Source of the DNA: a virus
Reading direction: 5' to 3' (one strand)
Length of the DNA: 35,226 nt
Virus record (IMG/VR): IMGVR_UViG_3300033571_005376
Location: 1-35,226 of that record
Positions 1,043 to 34,158 of this stretch are shown here, piece after piece (the stretch's first letter is position 1; each line of letters starts with the position of its first letter). The notes beneath the pieces were generated by a model. It did no database searches. It was not told the DNA's origin and saw only the letters and a list, made by a program, of their open reading frames with translations. Made by a program: the position numbers and the translations under genes.

Positions 1043-1774
1043 TCAAGTCTCCAAGTTGAATGCCGCGCGTGCGGCTTTATTGGCCCGAAGGGACCAATCT
1101 GGGGGTGCCAGCACAACGCTGGACAAATTGTTGTTCAGGTCGCGCGCCAGATCATGCAGCGCGCTTCGTGATTCAATTATTTTCGTGAGCAATTCCTGCG
1201 CCGCCGTCACCTTCTCGATGATGCGCGCTTCCAGTTCAACATCCCGGCGGTACTCCACGCCTGTGATGCGTTTCTCTGGGGGGATACCCCAGCAGATGTG
1301 CATCTGGGGCGGTTCGTACCGCATGAGTTCGGGCGGCGTGTCCACCATGCAGTAGACCACCTCCCAGCGTGGCTTCTGGTAGAGCATCATGTAGCCGCGA
1401 GCCTGCCACTCGTACTCGGGCTTGTCAGCTTCGTCGCTGGTAATGGGAAAGGTTTCCAATGACCAGGGCGACTTGATGTCGATGCCGAAATCAGGCTCGA
1501 CGATGTCAGCTTCCCCGGTAACCCAAACGTTACTAAGGCGGGTCGAGTTCTTCTGGTAGTTCGTCCCCCTGACCAGGTTGAGGAGGTCGATGGAATCCTG
1601 TTCCACCTCGTTGCCTTTCGACACGTACTTGTTCTGGATCTGGAAATCGACCCCGAACAGAACCTGCTTCGCCACCTTCAGGATGTGGGACTTCGCTGTC
1701 TCCGACAGCGTCTCGCCCTTTTTCCTGGGGTCGCCCATCAACTGGGACAAGGAACTGCACCTGAACGGCTTCAT
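1043..1774 (-). CDS. YqaJ/RecB-like PD-(D/E)xK exonuclease
   Basis: This 243-aa protein has the order of motifs of YqaJ / lambda-exonuclease-like phage nucleases. It opens with an N-terminal RCSSLSQLMGDP segment, then KGNEVEQDSID (E56/E58), then GEAD with D90, then GIDIKSPWS giving the D99-x-K101 metal site, and finally a helix with YEWQARGYMMLY, the usual Q-containing motif. It probably degrades one DNA strand to make recombinogenic ends and works with the ssDNA-binding protein encoded next. The start at ATG 1774 overlaps the stop of the upstream gene (ATGA); the longer in-frame extension is antisense-like and was rejected. Family membership is inferred from motif order; substrate specificity is not visible. 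Confidence 0.88.
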   Translation of the reverse strand: MKPFRCSSLSQLMGDPRKKGETLSETAKSHILKVAKQVLFGVDFQIQNKYVSKGNEVEQDSIDLLNLVRGTNYQKNSTRLSNVWVTGEADIVEPDFGIDIKSPWSLETFPITSDEADKPEYEWQARGYMMLYQKPRWEVVYCMVDTPPELMRYEPPQMHICWGIPPEKRITGVEYRRDVELEARIIEKVTAAQELLTKIIESRSALHDLARDLNNNLSSVVLAPPDWSLRANKAARAAFNLET

Positions 1775-2217
1775 GCCCCACACTCCGCGCGGAACGCTTC
1801 GTAGTGTTTTTGGTCCAGATCCGAAATCCGGCTTGCGCCAAACTTCTTCAGCAGTTCCACCGACGCCGGGACGCCGTTCTTCCGCGAGAACGATTGCAGA
1901 CACGCCCTCACGTCATCCAGCGACAACCGGATCTCCGGCGGCACCACTGGCGTATCGGTCGCGGTTGTTTCTTCCACGACGGCAGTGTCGGCAGGATCGA
2001 CGAACGTTTCCTCCACCGTCTCAACCACCTTCAGGTGGTCGGCCTTCTTACGACCGCGCTTATTCTTGACGGGTTCAGGCTCCGCCTCGGTCGGCGGGTA
2101 CTCTGGCGAATCGCCATCGGTGCCGACGCCAGCGTGTTCTTCCATCGCCTTCTGGATTTTACCCAGAAGCCACAAGTCGAAGTAGGTGAAGTTTTCGGTA
2201 TTGATCTCGATCTTCAA
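1771..2217 (-). CDS. acidic hypothetical protein, TTG start
   Basis: This 148-aa protein has no recognised catalytic motif. The N-terminus (MKIEINTENFTYFDLWLLGKI) looks structured. Residues about 30-95 are low-complexity, rich in E, P, T and V with a basic KNKRGRKK patch. The C-terminus (SLDDVRACLQSFSRKNG...LLKKFGASRISDLD) forms a small helical domain of a kind seen in unannotated phage proteins next to recombination genes. The start codon is TTG at 2217: a strong GGAGG lies eight bases upstream and there is no closer ATG. It overlaps the nuclease gene by ATGA, so translation is coupled. A role in recombination is inferred only from the neighbourhood. Confidence 0.75.
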   Translation of the reverse strand: MKIEINTENFTYFDLWLLGKIQKAMEEHAGVGTDGDSPEYPPTEAEPEPVKNKRGRKKADHLKVVETVEETFVDPADTAVVEETTATDTPVVPPEIRLSLDDVRACLQSFSRKNGVPASVELLKKFGASRISDLDQKHYEAFRAECGA

Positions 2218-2271
2218 ATGATGATCCTCCGTTACGTTGAGATAATCACAATGATTATCGCAAGATTGTTC

Positions 2272-3741
2272 CTAGTCAAGGATTTTTGTGATGTCCCTGG
2301 ATTTTTGTGCCACCACCCGCATGACCTGCTCGTCCACGGTGTCGGCGCAGACGAAGAAACGGCAGCGAACCGGCCTTTTCTGCCCCACGCGGTGGACCCG
2401 CATCGCCGCCTGGGCGTTGTCGGCTGGCACCCAGGATGATTCGAGAAAGCAGACCTCGGCAGCGGAGGTGAGCGTTATCCCCACCCCAGCGGCCACCACC
2501 TGACCGATGAAGACGCGGGTCTTCGGGTCGTTCTGGAAGCGATCGATGTTCGACTGCCGCTTGCCCACCGGGGTTCCGCCAAACAAGGTGACGCAGTTGT
2601 ATTTGCGCAGCCGCACCCGCGTCAGTTCGATGACCTGCTGGTGCATAGCGAAGATGACCAGCTTGTCGATGGCTCCGGTCGCAAGTTCTTCCTCGATGAT
2701 GTCGAGGCACGCATTCAGTTTCGCCAGACCGATCCAGCGGCGGAGCGTCGAGGTCGATTTGGAGTAGGACTCGATGAGACGCAGGGCGTCGCCACTATTG
2801 AAATGGTGACCGTCCCTGATTGCCAAGAGGCTGGCACGCAGCGTCTGGTCTTGTTTAGCGAGTTGTTCGAGGAACAACGGGATGCCGACATCCGCTTCTC
2901 CCAGCAACCGCCAGTTCTCGTAGAACCACGGGTCGAGATCGACGTGGCCCTTCGGCACCGTGACCTCCTGGAATGTGATCTTCGGTAATTGCAGCGCCAC
3001 GTCTTCCTTCTTTCTGCGCAGCATAACGCGCCCCAACACAGACCTCAGTTTCGGGATCGCCGCCTGCTTCGCTCCCGTAATCTTGAAACCAAAATTCGAC
3101 TCGAAACCATCGCAGTACTCGGCGACGAAATCCCAATAGTTCCGCGCCTCCTGTCCCATCGACTTCAAGTGAGTGTAGAGTTCGCTTGGGTTGTTCGGCA
3201 TCGGCGTCCCACTGAGACGCCAAGTGTGGGTCGCCGACGCCATGATGCCGGGATTTTTCCCGTGACCGTAGATCGCCTTCGTCCGTTTCGCCGTGCGTTC
3301 TTTCAGGTAATGCGCCTCGTCCAGGATGAGTACGTCGTGTTTCCTTCCCCGGTATGCGGCGCGTAACGCCTCGCTTGAGACCAAGAGGTCATAAGAGACA
3401 ATTGAGACGCCACTCGGGGGGAGTTGGGTCTTGGCTGTTTGGATGATGGTGACCGGGCGGTTGACCGTCGAGAACCGCTCGAACTCACGGCTCCAATTGA
3501 TGCGGAGATTGGCAGGGCAGACCACCAGGATGTTGGTGGCGGCGATCAAGTCGCACGCATGGATAGCTTGGGCAGACTTCCCAAGACCTGGCACGTCGCC
3601 CAGCAAAGCCTGCTTGTTTTCAACCAGGAACTTCGCGCCCTCCATCTGGTAGGGAAATAGCGCGAACGGGTTTTCGGCGGTTTTGAGCTTGGGTTTTTCT
3701 GTCAACCCACCTGCAATTCCCCGGCCCATATCCTGATTCAT
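2272..3741 (-). CDS. SNF2-family DEAH helicase/ATPase
   Basis: This 489-aa protein has superfamily 2 SNF2-like helicase motifs in order: Walker A GDVPGLGKS (48-56), motif Ia LVVCPANL, DEAH box at 141-144, motif III SGTPMP (177-182), and motif VI QAAMRVHRVGQ (444-454) followed by PVRCRFF. Such enzymes translocate on duplex DNA; in phages they probably help replication or recombination, like T4 UvsW. The start is ATG 3741, which has AGGA six bases upstream; an in-frame TTG at 3756 is less likely. The first 41 codons or so overlap out of frame with the HNH endonuclease gene, so the original N-terminus may have been changed by that insertion. The helicase core begins at about residue 24 (NPFALFPYQMEGAKF), so function should be kept. 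Confidence 0.92.
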   Translation of the reverse strand: MNQDMGRGIAGGLTEKPKLKTAENPFALFPYQMEGAKFLVENKQALLGDVPGLGKSAQAIHACDLIAATNILVVCPANLRINWSREFERFSTVNRPVTIIQTAKTQLPPSGVSIVSYDLLVSSEALRAAYRGRKHDVLILDEAHYLKERTAKRTKAIYGHGKNPGIMASATHTWRLSGTPMPNNPSELYTHLKSMGQEARNYWDFVAEYCDGFESNFGFKITGAKQAAIPKLRSVLGRVMLRRKKEDVALQLPKITFQEVTVPKGHVDLDPWFYENWRLLGEADVGIPLFLEQLAKQDQTLRASLLAIRDGHHFNSGDALRLIESYSKSTSTLRRWIGLAKLNACLDIIEEELATGAIDKLVIFAMHQQVIELTRVRLRKYNCVTLFGGTPVGKRQSNIDRFQNDPKTRVFIGQVVAAGVGITLTSAAEVCFLESSWVPADNAQAAMRVHRVGQKRPVRCRFFVCADTVDEQVMRVVAQKSRDITKILD

Positions 3742-4165
3742 TGTCGATCCTATCAAGCGTTAAGCCGGGTGGTCTTTCGCCCATTGAGCAATAGAAATTT
3801 TCAAAATCATGCCATTCGTCGCAAACGGTAATTCCTCTTCCGCCGTAGTATTTCCAAGCCCAGTTTCTGGGGTTGGTGCATCGTTTCAACATGTCGGCCC
3901 ACGATTGGTACGCGCCGCTGAAACCCCGCCGTTTTGCTTGCCCGTGTTTTGTGGACCGTAAGATGGTTTGTTCTTTTCGGTGGCATCCGCAGCTTACTGT
4001 ATGCCCGGACCTCAAGCTGTTGGCGCAAACGTTTTTGGCAGCGCCGCAGGAACAACGGCATTCCCAGACTGCTTTGTTGGCCTTGGTTCTGCCGACCAAT
4101 CTCAAAACCTCTAGACGCCCATAAAAATGGCCTGTTAAATCCAAACGGTTATGCCCTTTTGGCAT
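3620..4165 (-). CDS. HNH/treble-clef homing-type endonuclease
   Basis: This 181-aa protein is of the common phage free-standing HNH type. An N-terminal GRLEVLRLVGR strand leads to a cysteine cluster (C36, C38, C40, C59, C61) that likely binds zinc. A central WADMLKRCTNPR helix and YYGGRGITVCDEW follow, then LDRIDN (137-142) and GNCRW (149-153), the usual active-site region of this family. It would nick or cut DNA and promote its own spread. The region has visibly lower GC than its neighbours. ATG 4165 is chosen over TTG 4183 by the conserved start MPKGHNRLDL. Its last 40 codons overlap the helicase gene in another frame, and about 17 residues follow the normal NRRK end of the family, as if read-through into helicase coding sequence supplied the stop. 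Confidence 0.85.
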   Translation of the reverse strand: MPKGHNRLDLTGHFYGRLEVLRLVGRTKANKAVWECRCSCGAAKNVCANSLRSGHTVSCGCHRKEQTILRSTKHGQAKRRGFSGAYQSWADMLKRCTNPRNWAWKYYGGRGITVCDEWHDFENFYCSMGERPPGLTLDRIDNESGYGPGNCRWVDRKTQAQNRRKPVRAISLPDGGREVPG

Positions 4166-4216
4166 CTCAATACCCCGCAACAATGCGTTGCGAATATACC
4201 AATCTAATCGGCAAAC

Positions 4217-4435
4217 TCAAGACTTCTCGCGCTGGCGGCGCTCGATCTCACGGTTGATGTACCACGCCGCCTTCTGGAGATCCGTAATGGGGTCGCCTTT
4301 CAGGTCGCAGCGCATGATGTACTTGACCGCGTTGCCCAAACAGAAATTAAGGGCTTCCGTCACCACGATTGCCTCAACGCCGCTCGGGTGTTCGCGGTAG
4401 TGCTGCGGGTTGATGGGGTCGGTCTTTTTACGCAT
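4217..4435 (-). CDS. DUF3310 phage protein
   Basis: This 72-aa protein matches the DUF3310 pattern throughout: DPINPQHYREHPSGVEAI at the start, a central EALNFCLGNAVKYIMRCDLKGD, and DLQKAAWYINREIER at the end. DUF3310 proteins are widespread in phage replication regions; some are annotated as nucleotide kinase-like, but the protein is far too short to be a P-loop kinase and has no Walker motif, so the biochemical role is unknown. ATG 4435 lies two bases after the RuvC-like gene stop, so the two are coupled in one operon. Confidence 0.88.
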   Translation of the reverse strand: MRKKTDPINPQHYREHPSGVEAIVVTEALNFCLGNAVKYIMRCDLKGDPITDLQKAAWYINREIERRQREKS

Positions 4436-4437
4436 TG

Positions 4438-4935
4438 TTATTCCTCTCTTGAGATAGCCTGCATCCCGTACATCGCAATAAAAGCGGCCTCTGCTGCGCC
4501 GTCGTCCAAGGTCTTGGAGAATCGGGGGGCGTGATTGGGCCAGAGTTTGGATGCCAGCGCGCGGGAGCGGGCTTTGTGAACTGATGTGGTTTCATGCTCG
4601 GCGCGGGCTTGCAGCCCCACCGACCCGCGCCAGACGTGCGGTGCGACGATCCTCAGATTGAACCCCAGCGCCTCCACCGTCCCATGGACGATGCCAGCGG
4701 CCAGACCAAATCGAAATTGATGCGCTTGCCTGGGGCGGCTTGTGACGAACTCTACGTAGACGTGGGATGCGTCGGCTTCTTCCAGGATGCGGGCCAATGC
4801 TGGCACGTCTATCTCGACCGTGTTCTTCGGGCGGCGCGTCGGCATCCTCCCAGCGGCAATCAACTCGAAATTGGGAGCCATGACGGCCCATCCCCCGGTG
4901 AAGCCGGGGTCGATGCCGATCACATTCTTGGTCAT
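4438..4935 (-). CDS. RuvC-like Holliday junction resolvase
   Basis: This 165-aa protein has the RNase H-like fold signature of phage RuvC relatives. GIDPG carries the first acidic residue (D9), VYVEFVTSRP the second (E62), and the C-terminal LDDGAAEAAFIA helix provides D144/D145 and E149. E. coli RuvC is about 170 residues, so the length is normal. It should resolve branched DNA made in replication and recombination before packaging. Its ATG at 4935 overlaps the stop of the upstream HTH gene, and it is followed by the DUF3310 gene after two bases. The exact junction preference cannot be read from the sequence. Confidence 0.9.
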   Translation of the reverse strand: MTKNVIGIDPGFTGGWAVMAPNFELIAAGRMPTRRPKNTVEIDVPALARILEEADASHVYVEFVTSRPRQAHQFRFGLAAGIVHGTVEALGFNLRIVAPHVWRGSVGLQARAEHETTSVHKARSRALASKLWPNHAPRFSKTLDDGAAEAAFIAMYGMQAISREE

Positions 4936-5246
4936 ACGATCACCAGCTTGCGGGGACCGGAAGGCGCGATCGGCTCATTGCCGTCCCATGCTTGCGTCTC
5001 GGGCACCCAATCCTCGGGCCGGATCAAGACGCCGTTCTGGCGCGCCACTGCTTTGATTTGTTCAATTCGGGGGGAAGGTATCAGACCGTCGCAACCATAC
5101 GGGCGGCGATACTGCCAGCGGTAGATTGTGATGCGGGAGCAGTTCAGAAGGTAAGCGAGGGCGCTCTCCCCGCCAAACCTCCCGATGACCTTTGCCGCCT
5201 GGTTGTAGGTCGGTCGGCCATGCTTGCCGTTGTTGCGCGGTTTCAT
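4932..5246 (-). CDS. HTH DNA-binding protein, first gene of leftward operon
   Basis: This 104-aa protein contains a helix-turn-helix over about residues 15-72: AAKVIGRFGGESALAYLLN, then CSRITIYRWQYRR as the likely recognition helix, then GLIPSPRIEQIKAVAR. This layout is typical of small Cro/YdaS-like phage regulators with the IP-x-x-x-Q turn. The C-terminal 30 residues are probably flexible. GGAGGA precedes ATG 5246 at good spacing. As first gene of the leftward operon, directly beside the divergent promoters, it is a candidate Cro-like antagonist of the XRE protein encoded at 5410. It could instead be an operon-specific activator; this cannot be decided from sequence. Confidence 0.8.
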   Translation of the reverse strand: MKPRNNGKHGRPTYNQAAKVIGRFGGESALAYLLNCSRITIYRWQYRRPYGCDGLIPSPRIEQIKAVARQNGVLIRPEDWVPETQAWDGNEPIAPSGPRKLVIV

Positions 5247-5270
5247 TGCAGTCCTCCATGTTGCGGCTGA

Positions 5271-5299
5271 AGCGTAACAACACGTTTGGATAAACGCAA
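5271..5299 (-). promoter_or_regulatory. leftward early promoter
   Basis: On the minus strand TTGCGT (complement of 5294-5299) is followed after 17 bases by TACGCT (complement of 5271-5276). The -35 hexamer is inside the CGCAACA...TGTTGCG dyad, and a TAACAACACGT element (5275-5285) lies in the spacer, so repressor binding would block polymerase. It is placed about 25 bases ahead of the HTH gene. The -10 match is only partial. Confidence 0.55.
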
Positions 5300-5312
5300 C
5301 ACCATTGTTGCG
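5295..5312. promoter_or_regulatory. operator-like inverted repeat CGCAACA-4-TGTTGCG
   Basis: CGCAACA (5295-5301), CCAT, TGTTGCG (5306-5312) is a perfect 7-bp dyad overlapping the -35 box of the leftward promoter. The same heptamer pair with a 5-base spacer, in the opposite order, occurs at 8446-8464. A further TGTTGCG half-site lies at 5326-5332. Likely a regulator binding site; which regulator binds is inference. Confidence 0.6.
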
Positions 5313-5342
5313 ATGTTTTTGCGAATGTTGCGTTGGGTCATG

Positions 5343-5371
5343 TTGTTACGGAGCGCGACGTGTTGTATGTT
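5343..5371 (+). promoter_or_regulatory. rightward promoter for the XRE regulator gene
   Basis: TTGTTA (5343-5348) is followed by 17 bases and TATGTT (5366-5371), a reasonable sigma70-type pair. The -10 lies within the large dyad at 5356-5383, so the downstream gene is probably autoregulated. The predicted transcription start is about 30 bases before ATG 5410. Confidence 0.55.
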
Positions 5372-5383
5372 AACAACACGTCG
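5356..5383. promoter_or_regulatory. large operator-like dyad ahead of the XRE gene
   Basis: CGACGTGTTGT (5356-5366), spacer ATGTTA, ACAACACGTCG (5373-5383): a perfect 11-bp inverted repeat. Its TAACAACACGT part (5371-5381) recurs exactly at 5275-5285 in the leftward promoter spacer. The location over the rightward -10 box strongly suggests an operator of the lysogeny switch. Confidence 0.7.
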
Positions 5384-5409
5384 GGGGGCGTGAGTATGTG
5401 GAGGAGCGT

Positions 5410-5838
5410 ATGAACATCGACACCCGGTGGTTCCAGACCAGGTTAGCAGACAAACACGTCAGCCAGCGGCAGCTTGCCAAGCGGCTGGGGCTGGATCCGG
5501 CGGCGGTATCCCTGATGCTGCACGGACGCCGGAAGTTCACTGCTCAGGAGGCCGTGGAAATTGCCCGTGTGCTGGGCGTGGAGTTGGAGGCTGTGGTGAC
5601 CAAGGCGGGATTAAGAAGGGGCGCGGGCGGGCTTCTGGAGGGATCTGGGACGGAGGGGGGAAGTGATGAGGGGAGCGGCGATGTGTTTGAGGTGCCAGTG
5701 CCATTAGCTGACGGGGGCGTCGTGCGACTGCCATTGCCGCGCAGGTTGGGGCGGGGGGATGCGGAGCGGATTGCGGCGGTGGTGCGTGCCTGGGCCAGCA
5801 ACGGAGGTTCTGGGAGCGGGGATGGGAACCGGGAGTGA
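5410..5838 (+). CDS. XRE-family regulator (probable repressor of the divergent switch)
   Basis: This 142-aa protein has a classic XRE helix-turn-helix at residues 17-40 (VSQRQLAKRLGLDP, then AAVSLMLHGRRKF as the recognition helix), followed by TAQEAVEIARVLGVELEAVV. The middle is a Gly/Ser/Glu-rich linker (about 70-95). A short C-terminal part (GGVVRLPLPRRLGRGDAERIAAVVRAW) could mediate dimerisation. There is no visible LexA-like S24 protease domain, so control by RecA cleavage is not indicated. ATG 5410 is preferred to the GTG at 5398 because GGAGGA lies just ahead of it. Divergent placement from the leftward early operon, with a perfect dyad operator in front, fits a phage repressor. Confidence 0.82.
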   Translation: MNIDTRWFQTRLADKHVSQRQLAKRLGLDPAAVSLMLHGRRKFTAQEAVEIARVLGVELEAVVTKAGLRRGAGGLLEGSGTEGGSDEGSGDVFEVPVPLADGGVVRLPLPRRLGRGDAERIAAVVRAWASNGGSGSGDGNRE

Positions 5839-5883
5839 GGGTGGATTATCCAGAAGGGCTTAATTAGCGCCAACGGGGGGTGG

Positions 5884-6173
5884 CTCCAAAATGATTTTGG
5901 AGGCGGAAAAGATTTTGGAGCCGCTAACCCATTGAAACCATTGGGAAATACCAAAATTCCACCATTTCCAAAATCTTTTGGAAGTTCTATATAAAAAATG
6001 GTGGAGTATTACATGCCTGTAATATTCCTATATATCTTTTTATATGTAGTATATCTCTTATTATTTTGGAATAATGGAAAAAGAGAGAGAAAAGGGCAGA
6101 TTTCCGCTGGTTTTTGACCTCCAAAATCTTTCCAAAATCTTTTTTACCTCCAAAATCTGACCCCAGATTTTGG
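5884..6173. repeat. iterated CCAAAATC / GATTTTGG motif array
   Basis: Copies seen include CTCCAAAATGATTTTGGAG (5884-5902, a perfect 9-bp dyad about one base), GATTTTGGAG (5911-5920), CCAAAAT (5951-5957), TTCCAAAATCTTTTGGAA (5966-5983, dyad), ATTTTGGA (6063-6070), CCAAAATCTT (6121-6130), CCAAAATCT (6132-6140), and CCAAAATCT with its complement six bases later (6150-6173). Spacing is irregular and copies lie on both strands. GGCTCCAAAAT at 5882 can also pair with the complement ending at 5922, giving alternative hairpins. Confidence 0.75.
6007..6024. repeat. inverted repeat TATTACA-4-TGTAATA
   Basis: TATTACA (6007-6013), TGCC, TGTAATA (6018-6024) is a perfect 7-bp dyad in the AT-rich core, between the two clusters of CCAAAATC motifs. 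It could be a protein-binding site of the candidate origin; the function is unknown. Confidence 0.5.
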
Positions 6174-6198
6174 AAACCAAGGTCTTTCCGCTGGTTTT
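6101..6198 (+). repeat. 14-base direct repeat TTTCCGCTGGTTTT (two copies)
   Basis: TTTCCGCTGGTTTT occurs at 6101-6114 and again at 6185-6198, same strand, 84 bases apart, bracketing the second CCAAAATC cluster. This adds to the impression of an organised cis-acting region rather than decayed coding DNA. Confidence 0.7.
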
Positions 6199-6399
6199 GA
6201 AGATAAGAAAAAGCATTTTTTGATTTCCAGCATGGTTAACGGTGTTACGGTGTTGTTGCGCTGTGTTACGGTCGGAAATGCATTTCGTTCGATGCAATTT
6301 GAGTGGTTTTGTTAACGTTATTTTAAGAACCGCTCAGTATGCTCCGTTTGCCGCTCGTTGATTCGCGGGCGCGCTTTTACATCACGGAGGGTATTTCAC

Positions 6400-6495
6400 A
6401 TGGCTTTTATAGATTGGCTGGCAGGATTGGTCAGCGTTGCGCTTTCCACCATCATGATGGTGGGTCTCATTTTGATTGCGGCGGGTGCGGCATGA
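6400..6495 (+). CDS. 31-aa single-pass membrane peptide
   Basis: A short reading frame of 31 residues: MAFIDWLAGLVSVALST followed by IMMVGLILIAAGAA. After a short amphipathic start, almost all residues are hydrophobic or small, enough for one membrane span. GGAGG lies nine bases before ATG 6400. The last bases overlap ATG 6492 of the next small gene (ATGA), indicating translational coupling. Its placement far from the lysis genes argues against a holin for lysis; a superinfection or membrane-modifying peptide is possible. Function is unknown and the call rests on the ribosome site, coupling and composition. Confidence 0.55.
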   Translation: MAFIDWLAGLVSVALSTIMMVGLILIAAGAA

Positions 6496-6596
6496 AAACG
6501 GCAGGCTCTTTGGTCAGCGCCTTCTTGGGTGGCGCGTGCCTGGTCGCAACAGGCTATTGGGTGGCGGCGCTCTTTGTCGCCTTGGGGGTGGGGTAG
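6492..6596 (+). CDS. 34-aa membrane peptide coupled to the preceding gene
   Basis: This frame codes for 34 residues: MKTAGSLVSAFLGGACLVAT then GYWVAALFVALGVG. The sequence is a single hydrophobic, Gly/Ala-rich helix after a short polar start with one lysine, so probably N-in. It overlaps the 31-aa gene by ATGA. Longer upstream in-frame starts exist but would run antisense to the sense of the 31-aa gene and have no ribosome site. Two tiny coupled membrane peptides may act as a pair; nothing in the sequence defines a role. Confidence 0.5.
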   Translation: MKTAGSLVSAFLGGACLVATGYWVAALFVALGVG

Positions 6597-6604
6597 TCCG
6601 TAAC

Positions 6605-6632
6605 GTGGCGAGTGCCCGGTCCGTGGCGAGTG
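6605..6632 (+). repeat. two diverged copies of GTGGCGAGTG
   Basis: GTGGCGAGTG is found at 6605-6614 and 6623-6632 (18-base period), the same core as the perfect 17-base tandem repeat at 6752-6802. The intervening terminator hairpin separates the two groups. Confidence 0.7.
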
Positions 6633-6686
6633 TTACGGGCCGGTGACTGCTCAGCTTGCTTGTCTTGAGGGTGTGCAACAAGCGTT

Positions 6687-6730
6687 AGAACCCCCTGGCT
6701 CCACATGGCCTGGGGGTTCTCGCGTTTTGT
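6687..6730 (+). terminator. rho-independent-like terminator after the membrane peptides
   Basis: AGAACCCCC (6687-6695) pairs perfectly with GGGGGTTCT (6712-6720), with a 16-base loop that can itself pair further, followed by CGCG and TTTTGTT. It ends transcription coming from 6400-6596 and may also help stop leftward transcription from the 6807-8404 genes, though the T-run is weaker on that strand. Confidence 0.65.
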
Positions 6731-6751
6731 TCCTGCCGCGCGGTAGGTGCC

Positions 6752-6802
6752 GTGGCGAGTGCCAGGCCGTGGCGAGTGCCAGGCCGTGGCGAGTGCCAGG
6801 CC
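6752..6802 (+). repeat. three perfect tandem 17-base repeats
   Basis: GTGGCGAGTGCCAGGCC is present three times without change at 6752-6768, 6769-6785 and 6786-6802. The array ends four bases from the stop of the leftward 67-aa gene, in the convergent intergenic space. Unit length 17 excludes in-frame protein repeats. It may be a protein-binding array, or a recent slippage product. Confidence 0.85.
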
Positions 6803-6806
6803 GTTG

Positions 6807-7010
6807 CTAGGGAAACGTGTAAATAGGCGCGCCACCATACTTGTGCGCGCGTTCTGCCCCAATGCGCGTGGCGACGTGGATCAAAGCTGGACCGCCCGGG
6901 GAAATGGGTTCCAAGTAGACGCCCAAGCGGTATCGCTGGCAAAGCGCCAGGACGCGCATTGCGCGCGTCATGGTCTTAACAAATAGAACGCGAGTTTGGG
7001 GACGGTTCAT
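6807..7010 (-). CDS. hypothetical protein (67 aa), last gene of accessory operon
   Basis: This is a basic 67-aa protein (MNRPQTRVLFVKTMTRAMRVLALCQRYRLGVYLEPI...) with no recognised domain. The ATG at 7010 overlaps the TGA of the 118-aa gene (ATGA), so it is translationally coupled and very likely real. Its composition suggests a small folded domain: a basic helix (residues 11-27), then a Gly/Pro turn and a second alternating stretch (ALIHVATRIGAERAH). It is the 3'-most gene of the leftward cassette. Confidence 0.65.
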   Translation of the reverse strand: MNRPQTRVLFVKTMTRAMRVLALCQRYRLGVYLEPISPGGPALIHVATRIGAERAHKYGGAPIYTFP

Positions 7011-7363
7011 TCCTCTGCCTCCGCTTCATAAACGGGAACATAAACCGTCGGGTAAAAATCAACCCACCAAAACGACCCGCCGGGATGCTGACCCGGTGCG
7101 CGCACGATAAAATCATCCGGGGTGGCATAGGGTATGGCTTCGGCCAGGCGTTCCAGGTCCGGCTCGCCGAAATGCTTGGAATAGCAATCCCCGAAATCGC
7201 CAGGTTCAGCGCCTATGACCTTTGAGCCACCGGCGCGCTCTTGCAGCCGTTCGAGCATCTCTGGCTTAGACGATGCCCAATGAATGCGCGCCTCTTTGTC
7301 GATCTTCGTTCCGTCACTCCATGCGGTGTAATAGTACCCCGCATCGCGGTTCACTGTAGCCAT
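7007..7363 (-). CDS. hypothetical protein (118 aa) of accessory operon
   Basis: This 118-aa protein is of unknown family. The N-terminus (GYYYTAWSDGTKIDKEARIHWASSKPEMLERL) resembles small alpha/beta phage proteins, and the C-terminus has aromatic-rich strands (GSFWWVDFYPTVYVPVYE) with an acidic tail. It has no transmembrane segment or catalytic motif. GGAGG lies nine bases ahead of ATG 7363. It overlaps the 67-aa gene by ATGA. The 78 bases between this gene and the upstream 146-aa gene hold small GC-rich hairpins (GCTGC...GCAGC at 7384-7399). Confidence 0.7.
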   Translation of the reverse strand: MATVNRDAGYYYTAWSDGTKIDKEARIHWASSKPEMLERLQERAGGSKVIGAEPGDFGDCYSKHFGEPDLERLAEAIPYATPDDFIVRAPGQHPGGSFWWVDFYPTVYVPVYEAEAEE

Positions 7364-7441
7364 GTTCTAATCCCTCCAATTATGCTGCGTTAGTGCAGCG
7401 TGCGAGGCACGCGCGCGTGGCGCATGCCCCGTGGCGCTGAA

Positions 7442-7882
7442 CTAACCCCGCGCCATGGCGCGAACGATGCTCTCAATGACCGCGTCAATCGAAATTGATT
7501 GTCCCGTGGTTGTTCTGGCCCACACATTGTGGCCGTACCAATCGCGCGCGACTTTCTCTCCGTGTTTTTCGAGTTGTTCAGCGAGCCAGGAACTAACAGA
7601 CCAGTGCTCAAAAACCTCGCGTTCATGCGCCTCAATGTCGTGTTCGGCGCACAAATCCTCTGCGTTGCAATACTCGTCCTCTTCGTCGTCGTGCGTCCAC
7701 CTATCAGACGCGAGTGTCCATCCAGCCTCTTGGGCGGCGATTTCGTAGTCCAGAACGCCACATATCAGTTCGATTGCGTCGTCGTCTCCCTTTGACGCCA
7801 TGGCTTCAACTAGATGGGACAGGTTCGCAAAAATTTCATTGCGTACTAAATTGTTCGCTTTTTCGTGTATTTCCAAATCCAC
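7442..7882 (-). CDS. acidic conserved phage/plasmid hypothetical protein
   Basis: This is a 146-aa acidic protein. The second half, with EVFEHWSVSSWLAEQLEKHG then VWARTTTGQSISIDAVI, matches in style a protein I recall from many proteobacterial phages and plasmids, always without assigned function. The start is GTG at 7882 with GGAGG eight bases ahead; the upstream 82-aa gene stop overlaps this ribosome site, so the pair is coupled. No enzyme motif is seen. Because the family moves between plasmids and phages, a role in host interaction or stable maintenance is plausible, but this is inference. Confidence 0.78.
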   Translation of the reverse strand: MDLEIHEKANNLVRNEIFANLSHLVEAMASKGDDDAIELICGVLDYEIAAQEAGWTLASDRWTHDDEEDEYCNAEDLCAEHDIEAHEREVFEHWSVSSWLAEQLEKHGEKVARDWYGHNVWARTTTGQSISIDAVIESIVRAMARG

Positions 7883-7885
7883 CGA

Positions 7886-8119
7886 TCAATCCTCCAAAGT
7901 AACAAACAAAACGATGCAATCGCCATGGGGCCTAAATTCCATCGTGTCACCGATAGCGTACCAAGTGCCGCGCACATTGGTGAGACCAACGGCTTTCTTC
8001 GCCGCGCGTCGCAGCGCCATGACGGATTTTGTTTCAGGGTGATCGACGGTCGCGCGCTTGACCCACGCATAATTTGCCTCGCCGCCAAACGTATCAGTCA
8101 ATTCAACGCGGTAAATCAT
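7886..8119 (-). CDS. small conserved phage/plasmid hypothetical protein
   Basis: This 77-aa protein (MIYRVELTDTFGGEANYAWV...) has the strands and helix pattern of a small alpha/beta domain: an opening strand, KRATVDHPETKSVMALRRAAKKAVGL as the helical part, and GDTMEFRPHGDCIVLFVT as closing strands. It is recalled as a common partner of the neighbouring 146-aa family in proteobacterial plasmids and phages. ATG 8119 is chosen because a GAGGGG precedes it and the conserved part begins at MIYRVEL; an upstream in-frame start at 8134 is weaker. The stop overlaps the ribosome site of the next gene. Confidence 0.75.
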   Translation of the reverse strand: MIYRVELTDTFGGEANYAWVKRATVDHPETKSVMALRRAAKKAVGLTNVRGTWYAIGDTMEFRPHGDCIVLFVTLED

Positions 8120-8134
8120 ATCGTGTCCCCTCAA

Positions 8135-8404
8135 TTAAACCGAATAATTCCGCACGGTTTCAAGGACCGCGTTCCAGTCGTCTGTGTCGAGTACCGTGTC
8201 GCCGTCCTCTGTCTGCACGGAGTAGCGTTGCCACGACGGACACTCGCGCAGGTCTTTGTTTTCGCGGTCCACAAACACGCGCACGCCGTTAGGTGTTCCC
8301 CATGACGGACAAGCGTCGTTCGCGTAATGCGTGGGCGTCCACTCACGCGGAATTGCTGGCATCGTTTCGCCGCGAAAATGTGGAAAGTATTTATATAGCT
8401 TCAT
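8135..8404 (-). CDS. hypothetical protein (89 aa), first gene of accessory operon
   Basis: This is an 89-aa protein, MKLYKYFPHFRGETMPAIPR..., with no recognised domain. It is rich in aromatic residues and has two Cys (NDACPSWG and LRECPSWQ), each in a C-P-S-W motif, which could be a small repeated structural element. ATG 8404 has GGAGGG upstream; a longer frame to 8515 runs through the promoter and operator and was rejected. It stands directly behind the leftward promoter at 8434-8462. Confidence 0.7.
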   Translation of the reverse strand: MKLYKYFPHFRGETMPAIPREWTPTHYANDACPSWGTPNGVRVFVDRENKDLRECPSWQRYSVQTEDGDTVLDTDDWNAVLETVRNYSV

Positions 8405-8433: not shown

Positions 8434-8462
8434 TACATAGGGACGTGTTGCGATTAACGCAA
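8434..8462 (-). promoter_or_regulatory. leftward promoter of the accessory operon
   Basis: On the minus strand TTGCGT (complement of 8457-8462) is followed by 17 bases and TATGTA (complement of 8434-8439). The -35 element, again TTGCGT, lies inside a TGTTGCG/CGCAACA dyad, just as in the main leftward promoter at 5271-5299. Transcription would start some 20-25 bases before ATG 8404. Confidence 0.6.
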
Positions 8463-8464
8463 CA
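8446..8464. promoter_or_regulatory. operator-like dyad TGTTGCG-5-CGCAACA
   Basis: TGTTGCG (8446-8452), ATTAA, CGCAACA (8458-8464) is a perfect dyad over the -35 box of the accessory operon promoter. The flanking ACG before it extends the match to the ACGTGTTG part of the operator at 5356-5383. The same repressor probably controls both operons. Confidence 0.62.
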
Positions 8465-32864: not shown

Positions 32865-33986
32865 CTAGCCCCGCTCTCCCTCCAGAGCGGGGCTTTTTCT
32901 TTGCATTGCGATCATGATGCGGTCGGCGGTGGCGGTGGCCGCAGCCGTTGCAGCTTCCTCAACCAGGTGGGCGTAGCGTTTCGTGGTCTGCGTGGACTTG
33001 TGGCCCAAGAGTTCGCCGATCTGGCCCAGGGATAACCCAGCGGACAGGGCCGCAGACGCGAACGAGTGGCGCAGGTCGTGCATCCGCAGGTCGGGGCAAC
33101 CGGCTTCATTCCGCACGCGCTCCCACAATTTCTGCGGGGTCAGGATGCCGGTGATGGTTCCGGTGGTGCGCGGCAGGCGGTCCAGAACGTCGCGCGCTGG
33201 CTCTGGCAGGTAGACCTGTTTCTCGCCCGTCTTGCTGTCTGGCAAGTTAATGGTGCTGCCCTTGATCCACTCCCAGCGGGCGGCAGCGATCTCGCCTTTC
33301 CGCGCTCCGGTCAGGATCAAGAGGTAGAGGAACGCCACGGACGCCGGGTTGGCTGCGGCTTCCCGGTCCAGGATCTCGGCGATGCGTGCCGTCTCCTCGC
33401 CCGTCATGTAGCGGCGTCGTTTGTTTTCCTTGTACCGCTTCACGCCCCGGACAGGGGATCGCTCGATCCACTCCAGCGGGCGGCAACCAAAGTTGAACAT
33501 GCCCGACAGGAACGCCAGGACACGGTTCGCCTCAATGGGGGTGGACGCCATCCCTTCGTGGATGTCCGCGATCTGGGAGAAGGTCACGTCGACCACCTTC
33601 ATGCGGCCAAGGCGTGGCTCGATGTGCAGCCTCCACTGCCTCTCGTAAGTGCTACCACTTTTGATACGGGAGGCGTGCCGTTGGTAGTATTCCTTCCAGA
33701 GGTCGGCAACGGTGGGGGCGGCACGCTCCTCGGCGCGGTCGCGCGATGGGTCGCGGCCAGCGGCCACTTCGGCCAGCCACTCCTGCGCCACACGCCGCGC
33801 CTGGACCAGCGTGATCTGGCCGCGGGTGCCCAGCTTCGGCTTTCGCTGTTCGCCGCCCTTGGTGCGGTAGAACAGGTAGAACCCGGCGCTCTCTTCAAAG
33901 ACCCGCAGGTGCAACCCGCGCACGTTCTTGTCGCGCAGGATGTCACCGGGCTTGGCTGTCCTGATATTCTTTTCGTTGAGTTCCAT
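32865..33986 (-). CDS. int: tyrosine-type integrase
   Basis: This 373-aa tyrosine recombinase has an N-terminal arm-binding domain (residues 1-80, ENNIRTAKPGDILRDKNVRG type, DUF4102-like), a core-binding helical part and the catalytic domain. Catalytic residues are R229 (TGARKGEI), K252 (SKTG), H303-x-x-R306 (MHDLRHSFAS), H329 (LLGHKSTQ) and nucleophile Y338. The protein is intact and of normal length for P4/phage integrases. It should integrate the phage into a tRNA-Asn gene through the tRNA-like attP located just upstream. ATG 33986 is preceded by a G-run. The last codons contain the late-operon terminator. Confidence 0.95.
   Translation of the reverse strand: MELNEKNIRTAKPGDILRDKNVRGLHLRVFEESAGFYLFYRTKGGEQRKPKLGTRGQITLVQARRVAQEWLAEVAAGRDPSRDRAEERAAPTVADLWKEYYQRHASRIKSGSTYERQWRLHIEPRLGRMKVVDVTFSQIADIHEGMASTPIEANRVLAFLSGMFNFGCRPLEWIERSPVRGVKRYKENKRRRYMTGEETARIAEILDREAAANPASVAFLYLLILTGARKGEIAAARWEWIKGSTINLPDSKTGEKQVYLPEPARDVLDRLPRTTGTITGILTPQKLWERVRNEAGCPDLRMHDLRHSFASAALSAGLSLGQIGELLGHKSTQTTKRYAHLVEEAATAAATATADRIMIAMQRKSPALEGERG
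32867..32900 (+). terminator. strong rho-independent terminator of the late operon
   Basis: AGCCCCGCTC (32867-32876) pairs perfectly with GAGCGGGGCT (32885-32894) through an 8-base loop, followed by TTTTTCTTT. It ends the rightward late operon. The hairpin lies inside the 3' end of the convergent integrase gene and so also protects that gene from late read-through. On the minus strand it lacks a T-run. Confidence 0.9.
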
Positions 33987-34111: not shown

Positions 34112-34158
34112 GACTGTTAATCGCTAGGTCGTAGGTTCGAGTCCTACTCGGGGAGCCA
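34112..34158 (+). other. attP: attP core: 3' half of a tRNA-Asn gene
   Basis: These 47 bases reproduce the 3' half of a tRNA: anticodon loop CTGTTAA with GTT (34116-34118, Asn), a variable loop GTC, the T arm GTAGG-TTCGAGT-CCTAC and acceptor strand TCGGGGAG plus GCCA end. The bases before it (AATATATCCAAACAAAAAA) do not form a 5' half, so this is not a functional tRNA. It lies between int and the excisionase-like gene. Such 3' tRNA fragments serve as attP cores that rebuild the host tRNA on integration. Identity as Asn is read from the anticodon and similarity to the general tRNA-Asn form. Confidence 0.85.

Follow-up and report, generated by a model that had tools for sequence, protein, structure and literature searches.

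A cassette of five small leftward genes in a temperate phage is probably an accessory locus under repressor control that is expressed early and serves host takeover or counter-defence, a reading to which we give a probability of roughly 0.6. The architecture of the locus is well supported and the function is what we infer from its context. The window, by which we mean the whole stretch of DNA that was analysed, is an IMG/VR virus record of 35,226 bases encoding a head-to-tail connector, a capsid protein and Sf6-type small (terS) and large terminase subunits together with a tyrosine integrase, an HTH repressor and a weakly Cro-like HTH protein. The last three mark it, on the evidence of its gene content, as a temperate phage, and its structural genes are podovirus-like. 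A Megablast search with the first 25 kb of the window found no DNA match in the annotated phage collection. Beside the integrase gene (32865-33986) a tRNA-like stretch (plus strand GTTAATC...GGTTCGAGTCCTACTCGGGGAGCCA) lies at 34112-34158 on the minus strand. It is probably the 3' end of a tRNA-Asn(GTT) and hence the attachment site; ARAGORN found no complete tRNA there.

Table 1: Features of the cassette and of the lysogeny switch (positions in the window).
Feature	Position	Strand	Evidence or remark
Cro-like HTH gene, divergent from the repressor gene	4932..5246	-	weak P22_Cro match
cI-cro intergenic region, 151 bp	5247..5397	.	four TGTTGCG/CGCAACA half-sites: 5259, 5295, 5306, 5326
HTH_3 repressor-like gene, candidate regulator	5410..5838	+	HTH match
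hairpin downstream of p67, likely operon end	6680..6727	.	fold z -2.3
p67, basic (pI 10.9), last operon gene	6807..7010	-	kept in every clade member
p118, acidic, optional, known from this phage clade alone	7007..7363	-	gene comparison, dN/dS
p146, acidic alpha/beta protein	7442..7882	-	C-terminal EHWxVSxWLA...VWARTTTGQ domain (phrog_26364)
p77, short form of the phrog_22729 family	7886..8119	-	TDTFGGEANYxWVKR motif; AlphaFold model
p89, first operon gene	8135..8404	-	phage family with FPxF...NDACPS...(V/I)D...RExP core; also in Rhodobacter phages
operator-like perfect palindrome TGTTGCGATTAACGCAACA	8446..8464	.	between p89 and divergent terS

The operon and its putative operator

Five leftward reading frames of 89, 77, 146, 118 and 67 amino acids had been listed in a preliminary description of this DNA and are present as stated; they are called p89, p77, p146, p118 and p67 here (Table 1). 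From p89 to p67 the intergenic gaps are 15 bp, 3 bp and 78 bp, followed by a 4-bp overlap, so that the tight spacing claimed before holds except in front of p118. A GGAGG-like ribosome site is found ahead of each gene, and p146 starts with GTG where its relatives have ATG. Gap geometry and ribosome sites bear out the proposal that the five genes are one operon, predicted to run leftward between the divergent intergenic region and a hairpin. As the U-run of this hairpin lies on its rightward side, it may mainly serve the converging transcript.

All five genes are under purifying selection. Pairwise dN/dS values among relatives are 0.04-0.30 for p67, p118, p77 and p89 (0.08-0.30 for p89 itself), and for p146, whose dS is saturated among relatives, pS is 0.78 versus a pN of 0.17. 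Because of these low values the five frames are taken as real genes and not as chance frames. By inspection none of the products looks membrane-bound, and two of them are acidic, namely p146 (pI 4.43, net charge -22 over 146 residues) and p118 (pI 4.6).

Around the operon several further elements were noted. Just past its end CGTGGCGAGTGCCAGG is present in several copies within 6604-6800, three of them in 17-bp tandem, and the stretch 6401-6597, which is kept in the relative L021, holds two tiny hydrophobic reading frames (31 and 34 amino acids) directed rightward towards the cassette. The AT-rich part that follows the repressor gene has a cluster of TCCAAAATCTTTTGGA-like sites, in both orientations, at 5886-6176 (6 matches versus 0.15 expected), which might be origin repeats or a second operator set. 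An Rfam search found nothing.

The palindrome upstream of p89 has the form TGTTGCG-N5-CGCAACA. With up to three mismatches allowed, 1.7 such sites would be expected in a shuffled window, and the only copy free of mismatches is the one upstream of p89. It is kept in three of the four relatives covering the site (L003, L015 and L021) and degenerate in L032, where it is half lost. Its half-sites are concentrated in two intergenic intervals, as the interval upstream of p89 and the cI-cro interval (282 bp together) hold 6 of the 18 half-sites of the window versus 0.10 expected, with a P of ~1e-9 that is optimistic because intervals and motif were picked after viewing the sequence. In view of the half-site cluster between cI and cro, control of the operon by the lysogeny repressor or by Cro is probable, and both palindrome and clusters speak for the regulated promoter that had been proposed. 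From a reading by eye we infer a leftward promoter with its -35 box TTGCGT (8462-8457) inside the palindrome, a spacing of 17 and a weak -10 box TATGTA (8439-8434); the by-eye promoters of relatives read TTGCGG-17-TATATT and TTGCGG-17-TATATC. The promoter TTGCGT-17-TATGTA was not listed by a consensus promoter scan. As the rightward terminase operon also starts in this region, the palindrome could serve the terminase promoter instead.

Gene content among close relatives

Five independent relatives of the same clade came from scanning viral contigs and, once, bacterial genomes: L021 (same contig as L002, L014 and L018), L003, L015, L020 (same contig as L043) and L032, whose contig belongs to a bacterial MAG. 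Gene orders are given from the promoter side, with extra genes read by eye from the lists of reading frames. The window has p89-p77-p146-p118-p67, to which L021 adds an extra gene in front and one of 68 aa before p67 (extra gene-p89-p77-p146-p118-(68 aa)-p67). L003 is longer, with (102 aa)-p89-p77-p146-(169 aa)-(58 aa)-p118-(67 aa)-p67. In L015 another first gene stands before p77-p146-p118-p67, the partial L020 reads p146-(169 aa)-p118-p67, and L032, which is without p118, has another first gene followed by p77-p146-(68 aa)-(128 aa)-p67. Thus all six clade members have p77, p146 and p67 as far as their sequence reaches. p89 and p118 are optional, since close relatives lack them or have other genes in their place, and further small genes have been inserted.

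The flanks of the cassette are collinear among the clade members. Over 1237-7011 L021 is 93% identical to the window, but its identity falls to 83% in the cassette and to 74% at the terS start; the large terminase of L015 has 99.7% identity to that of the window, compared with 71-88% for terS and the cassette proteins. As the flanks are collinear and both cassette and terS are less conserved in L021 and L015, the cassette is, judged by this comparison, a site of gene exchange. Its content differs among close relatives at a fixed site, which is what characterizes a variable early locus.

Spread and folds of the protein families

No match in Pfam or NCBIfam names a function for any of the five proteins and none has a homologue of tested function, so they are still without an assigned function, as had been noted. 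The most widespread is p77, with 383 pattern matches in viral contigs, 368 of them confirmed, and 17 phage records, among which are the large Caulobacter phages, Agrobacterium phage JP1 and Stenotrophomonas phages. It matches the phrog_22729 profile (E 2.1e-19), lacks about 16 residues (PELTHYGYDG...) of the longer members and shares with its family TDT, G13, A15, Y17, W19 and R22, which are invariant over 62 sequences. The match of p146 to PHROG 26364 (E 2.1e-5) spans residues 79-140 only, so that its membership is based on the C-terminal domain, which was found at 45 viral loci and 11 genome loci (clade members included in both counts) and in 6 phage records. Neither PHROG 22729 nor PHROG 26364, the latter corresponding to the C-terminal half of p146, has an annotated function. 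p89 is found at 24 viral loci and in 22 Rhodobacter phages. For p118 and p67 the phage collection gave no match, and the viral scan with p118 returned clade members only.

The families of p77 and p146 had been described as occurring in both plasmids and phages. This is correct for the phages, but among 72,556 plasmid records only two carry p146, with its C-terminal half only and one of them being a phage-plasmid, and p77 has no match among them. The C-P-S-W element of p89 described as repeated is indeed present twice (residues 32-35 and 55-58). Conservation in 20 aligned sequences is confined to the first of these, which lies in the family core NDACPS; of the second, C55 and W58 are not conserved and little beyond the proline is kept. 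The apparent repeat is thus a coincidence of this clade, and CPSW was rejected as a metal site or repeated motif.

Profile searches in 289 genomes of one bacterial class, that of a Devosia genome and hence taxonomically the Alphaproteobacteria, found p77 and p89 in none of them and p146 once, in the seed genome itself. For p77, recovery of four known carriers was obtained. Such near absence from the genomes of this class argues for a virus-specific role. As claimed for portable families, p77, p146 and p89 turn up one at a time in unrelated phages; the only pair found together beyond the clade was p77 with p89, at L115 (adjacent) and L160 (1.5 kb apart), and p146 was not seen with either. Domains of p77 and p89 also occur fused to other small unnamed domains, and p89 once in tandem, which fits a pool of shuffling modules. 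The picture suggested by these distributions is one of small, mobile, virus-specific modules.

In L120, L121, L132 and L097 the p77 domain forms C-terminal fusions with other small phage domains, and some of these occur elsewhere as separate neighbours of p77. Members of a small family with a YAWPGGYP motif are repeatedly found beside p77 relatives in unrelated phages (L097, L087 and L160), and this family might be a functional partner of p77.

The position of the relatives within their genomes was also considered. The p77 relative of CcrColossus is gene 4, inside the terminal repeat of this phage, which is ~16.7 kb long (PMC3556154). In RcSimone-Hastad the p89 relative heads the operon that runs divergently from the terminase side, and in RcRudolph it is the terminal gene at the genome end. 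In phages of known layout the relatives of p77 and p89 thus sit where the first-expressed genes would be expected. Among 231 neighbour proteins almost all are without a known family, DUF7249 being the only Pfam family of unknown function that recurs in both neighbour sets. With neighbours nearly all unnamed, guilt by association cannot name a target.

The preliminary description had also suggested a structure search and a comparison with anti-CRISPR and anti-restriction proteins; the structures yielded one weak match for p77 and no solved relative for p146, and the comparison gave neither sequence homology to AcrIE2 nor a Pfam match to Ocr or ArdA. The AlphaFold models of p77 and p146 are both confident. 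That of p77 (pLDDT 96.2) has the order beta-beta-alpha-beta-beta-beta, and its best row in VIA-align 2 is AcrIE2 (PDB 7chq) with Z 5.5, an rmsd of 3.2 A, 69 of 77 residues and 14% identity. AcrIE2 leads this list by 0.8, at a Z below 8 that may reflect a common simple arrangement, and Foldseek found no match to p77 at E below 0.001. As a sequence homologue of AcrIE2 p77 was rejected, since hmmsearch --max gave -0.9 bits and hhalign with a 62-row profile a probability of about 0.1%. The resemblance of the p77 model to AcrIE2 may therefore be used as a weak lead and not as membership. According to one report, AcrIE2 associates with the type I-E complex by a mechanism that is still unclear (PMC12883894).

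For p146 the model (pLDDT 93.5) is mixed alpha/beta. Its best Foldseek probability against the PDB is about 0.1 and its best VIA Z is 3.1, although a missing match in such lists is no proof of a new fold; in BFVD its confident matches are only its own unnamed phage relatives. Searches for solved relatives of p146, p77 and p89 by sequence returned rows at chance level. It seems rather doubtful, on this evidence, that p77 founds a very widespread phage inhibitor family of AcrIE2-like fold, present early in hundreds of unrelated phages, and that with p146, of a fold without solved relative, and p89 it would make three undescribed host-takeover or anti-defence families. What is new here are the families without a name, most of all p146, for which no solved relative was found, and the very abundant p77.

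Among the five products no HTH match was found that would point to an Aca-type gene as present in anti-CRISPR operons. p146 and p118 resemble the DNA mimics Ocr and ArdA in being acidic, the net charge of p146 being milder than that of Ocr. No Pfam match to Ocr or ArdA was obtained for either protein, and the Ocr and ArdA folds are absent from the VIA list of p146, which does not exclude a DNA-mimic fold. Membership in a defence system was rejected as PADLOC gave no match; PADLOC covers defence and not counter-defence, so it says little about the latter. Literature searches that combined early genes with anti-defence yielded nothing useful.

Function of the locus and related systems

In the mechanism that we favour, the repressor would occupy the palindrome in the lysogen and silence the operon. 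On infection or induction the promoter would open and the small proteins would be made early. Each of them might then, which is less certain, work alone by binding and disabling a host target belonging either to the defence or to the housekeeping machinery, and the operon would in this case be a changeable kit for host takeover or counter-defence and not one machine. An early host-directed role is suggested by gene position, near restriction to viruses and content swaps between close relatives, which are marks of host-takeover and counter-defence genes. The earlier suggestion of such a role fits this context, the activity itself being putative and early expression being predicted from sequence. 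Against the favoured reading speak the degenerate palindrome of L032, the weak -10 boxes and the only moderate acidity of p146.

The cassette adjoins terS, and a few neighbours of the relatives are sliding-clamp, RusA, ligase-like and HNH proteins, so that the products could also be accessory helpers of DNA metabolism or packaging (replication, recombination or terminase). We regard this as unlikely, since p89 and p118 are dispensable in close relatives, no match to a DNA-metabolism family was found and the relatives occur in differently built phages beside varied small unnamed genes. Lysogeny genes that act from the prophage, in superinfection exclusion or lysogenic conversion, would suit a phage with integrase and repressor, and prophage accessory genes likewise vary between relatives. 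This role is quite improbable, however, because an operator-like palindrome common to the lytic switch would be expected to shut the genes off in lysogens, large Caulobacter phages and other isolates have p77 relatives, the p77 family is found in 0 of the 289 genomes of the sampled class and no product has the look of a membrane protein. Finally, one dedicated multi-protein system, for which the tight operon and the p77-p146-p67 set kept in the clade members covering it might speak and which had been proposed as an undescribed five-gene system, is very improbable and was rejected as a co-inherited unit by the gene-content comparison, since the content varies within the clade and outside of it co-occurrence is limited to p77 with p89 at two loci, with p146 apart from both. 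The look for co-occurring homologues that the preliminary description had suggested shows that the five genes are not inherited as a set.

The cassette ties three abundant unnamed phage families to one small, probably repressor-controlled operon varying by natural gene swaps, and p77 relatives alone number hundreds in viral contigs. Should the products turn out to block host defences, their natural variants might serve as a ready panel for target finding. Variable early anti-defence loci of phages are exemplified by the T7 0.3/Ocr and lambda ral regions. Plasmid leading regions can be compared as variable anti-defence loci as well (PMC11541004). The cassette differs from such loci as it contains no known anti-defence gene and its control looks like the phage's own lysogeny operator. 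What it has in common with these phage and plasmid loci is a cluster of small genes whose expression would be expected upon entry, a content that varies between relatives, and families that recur in unrelated elements.
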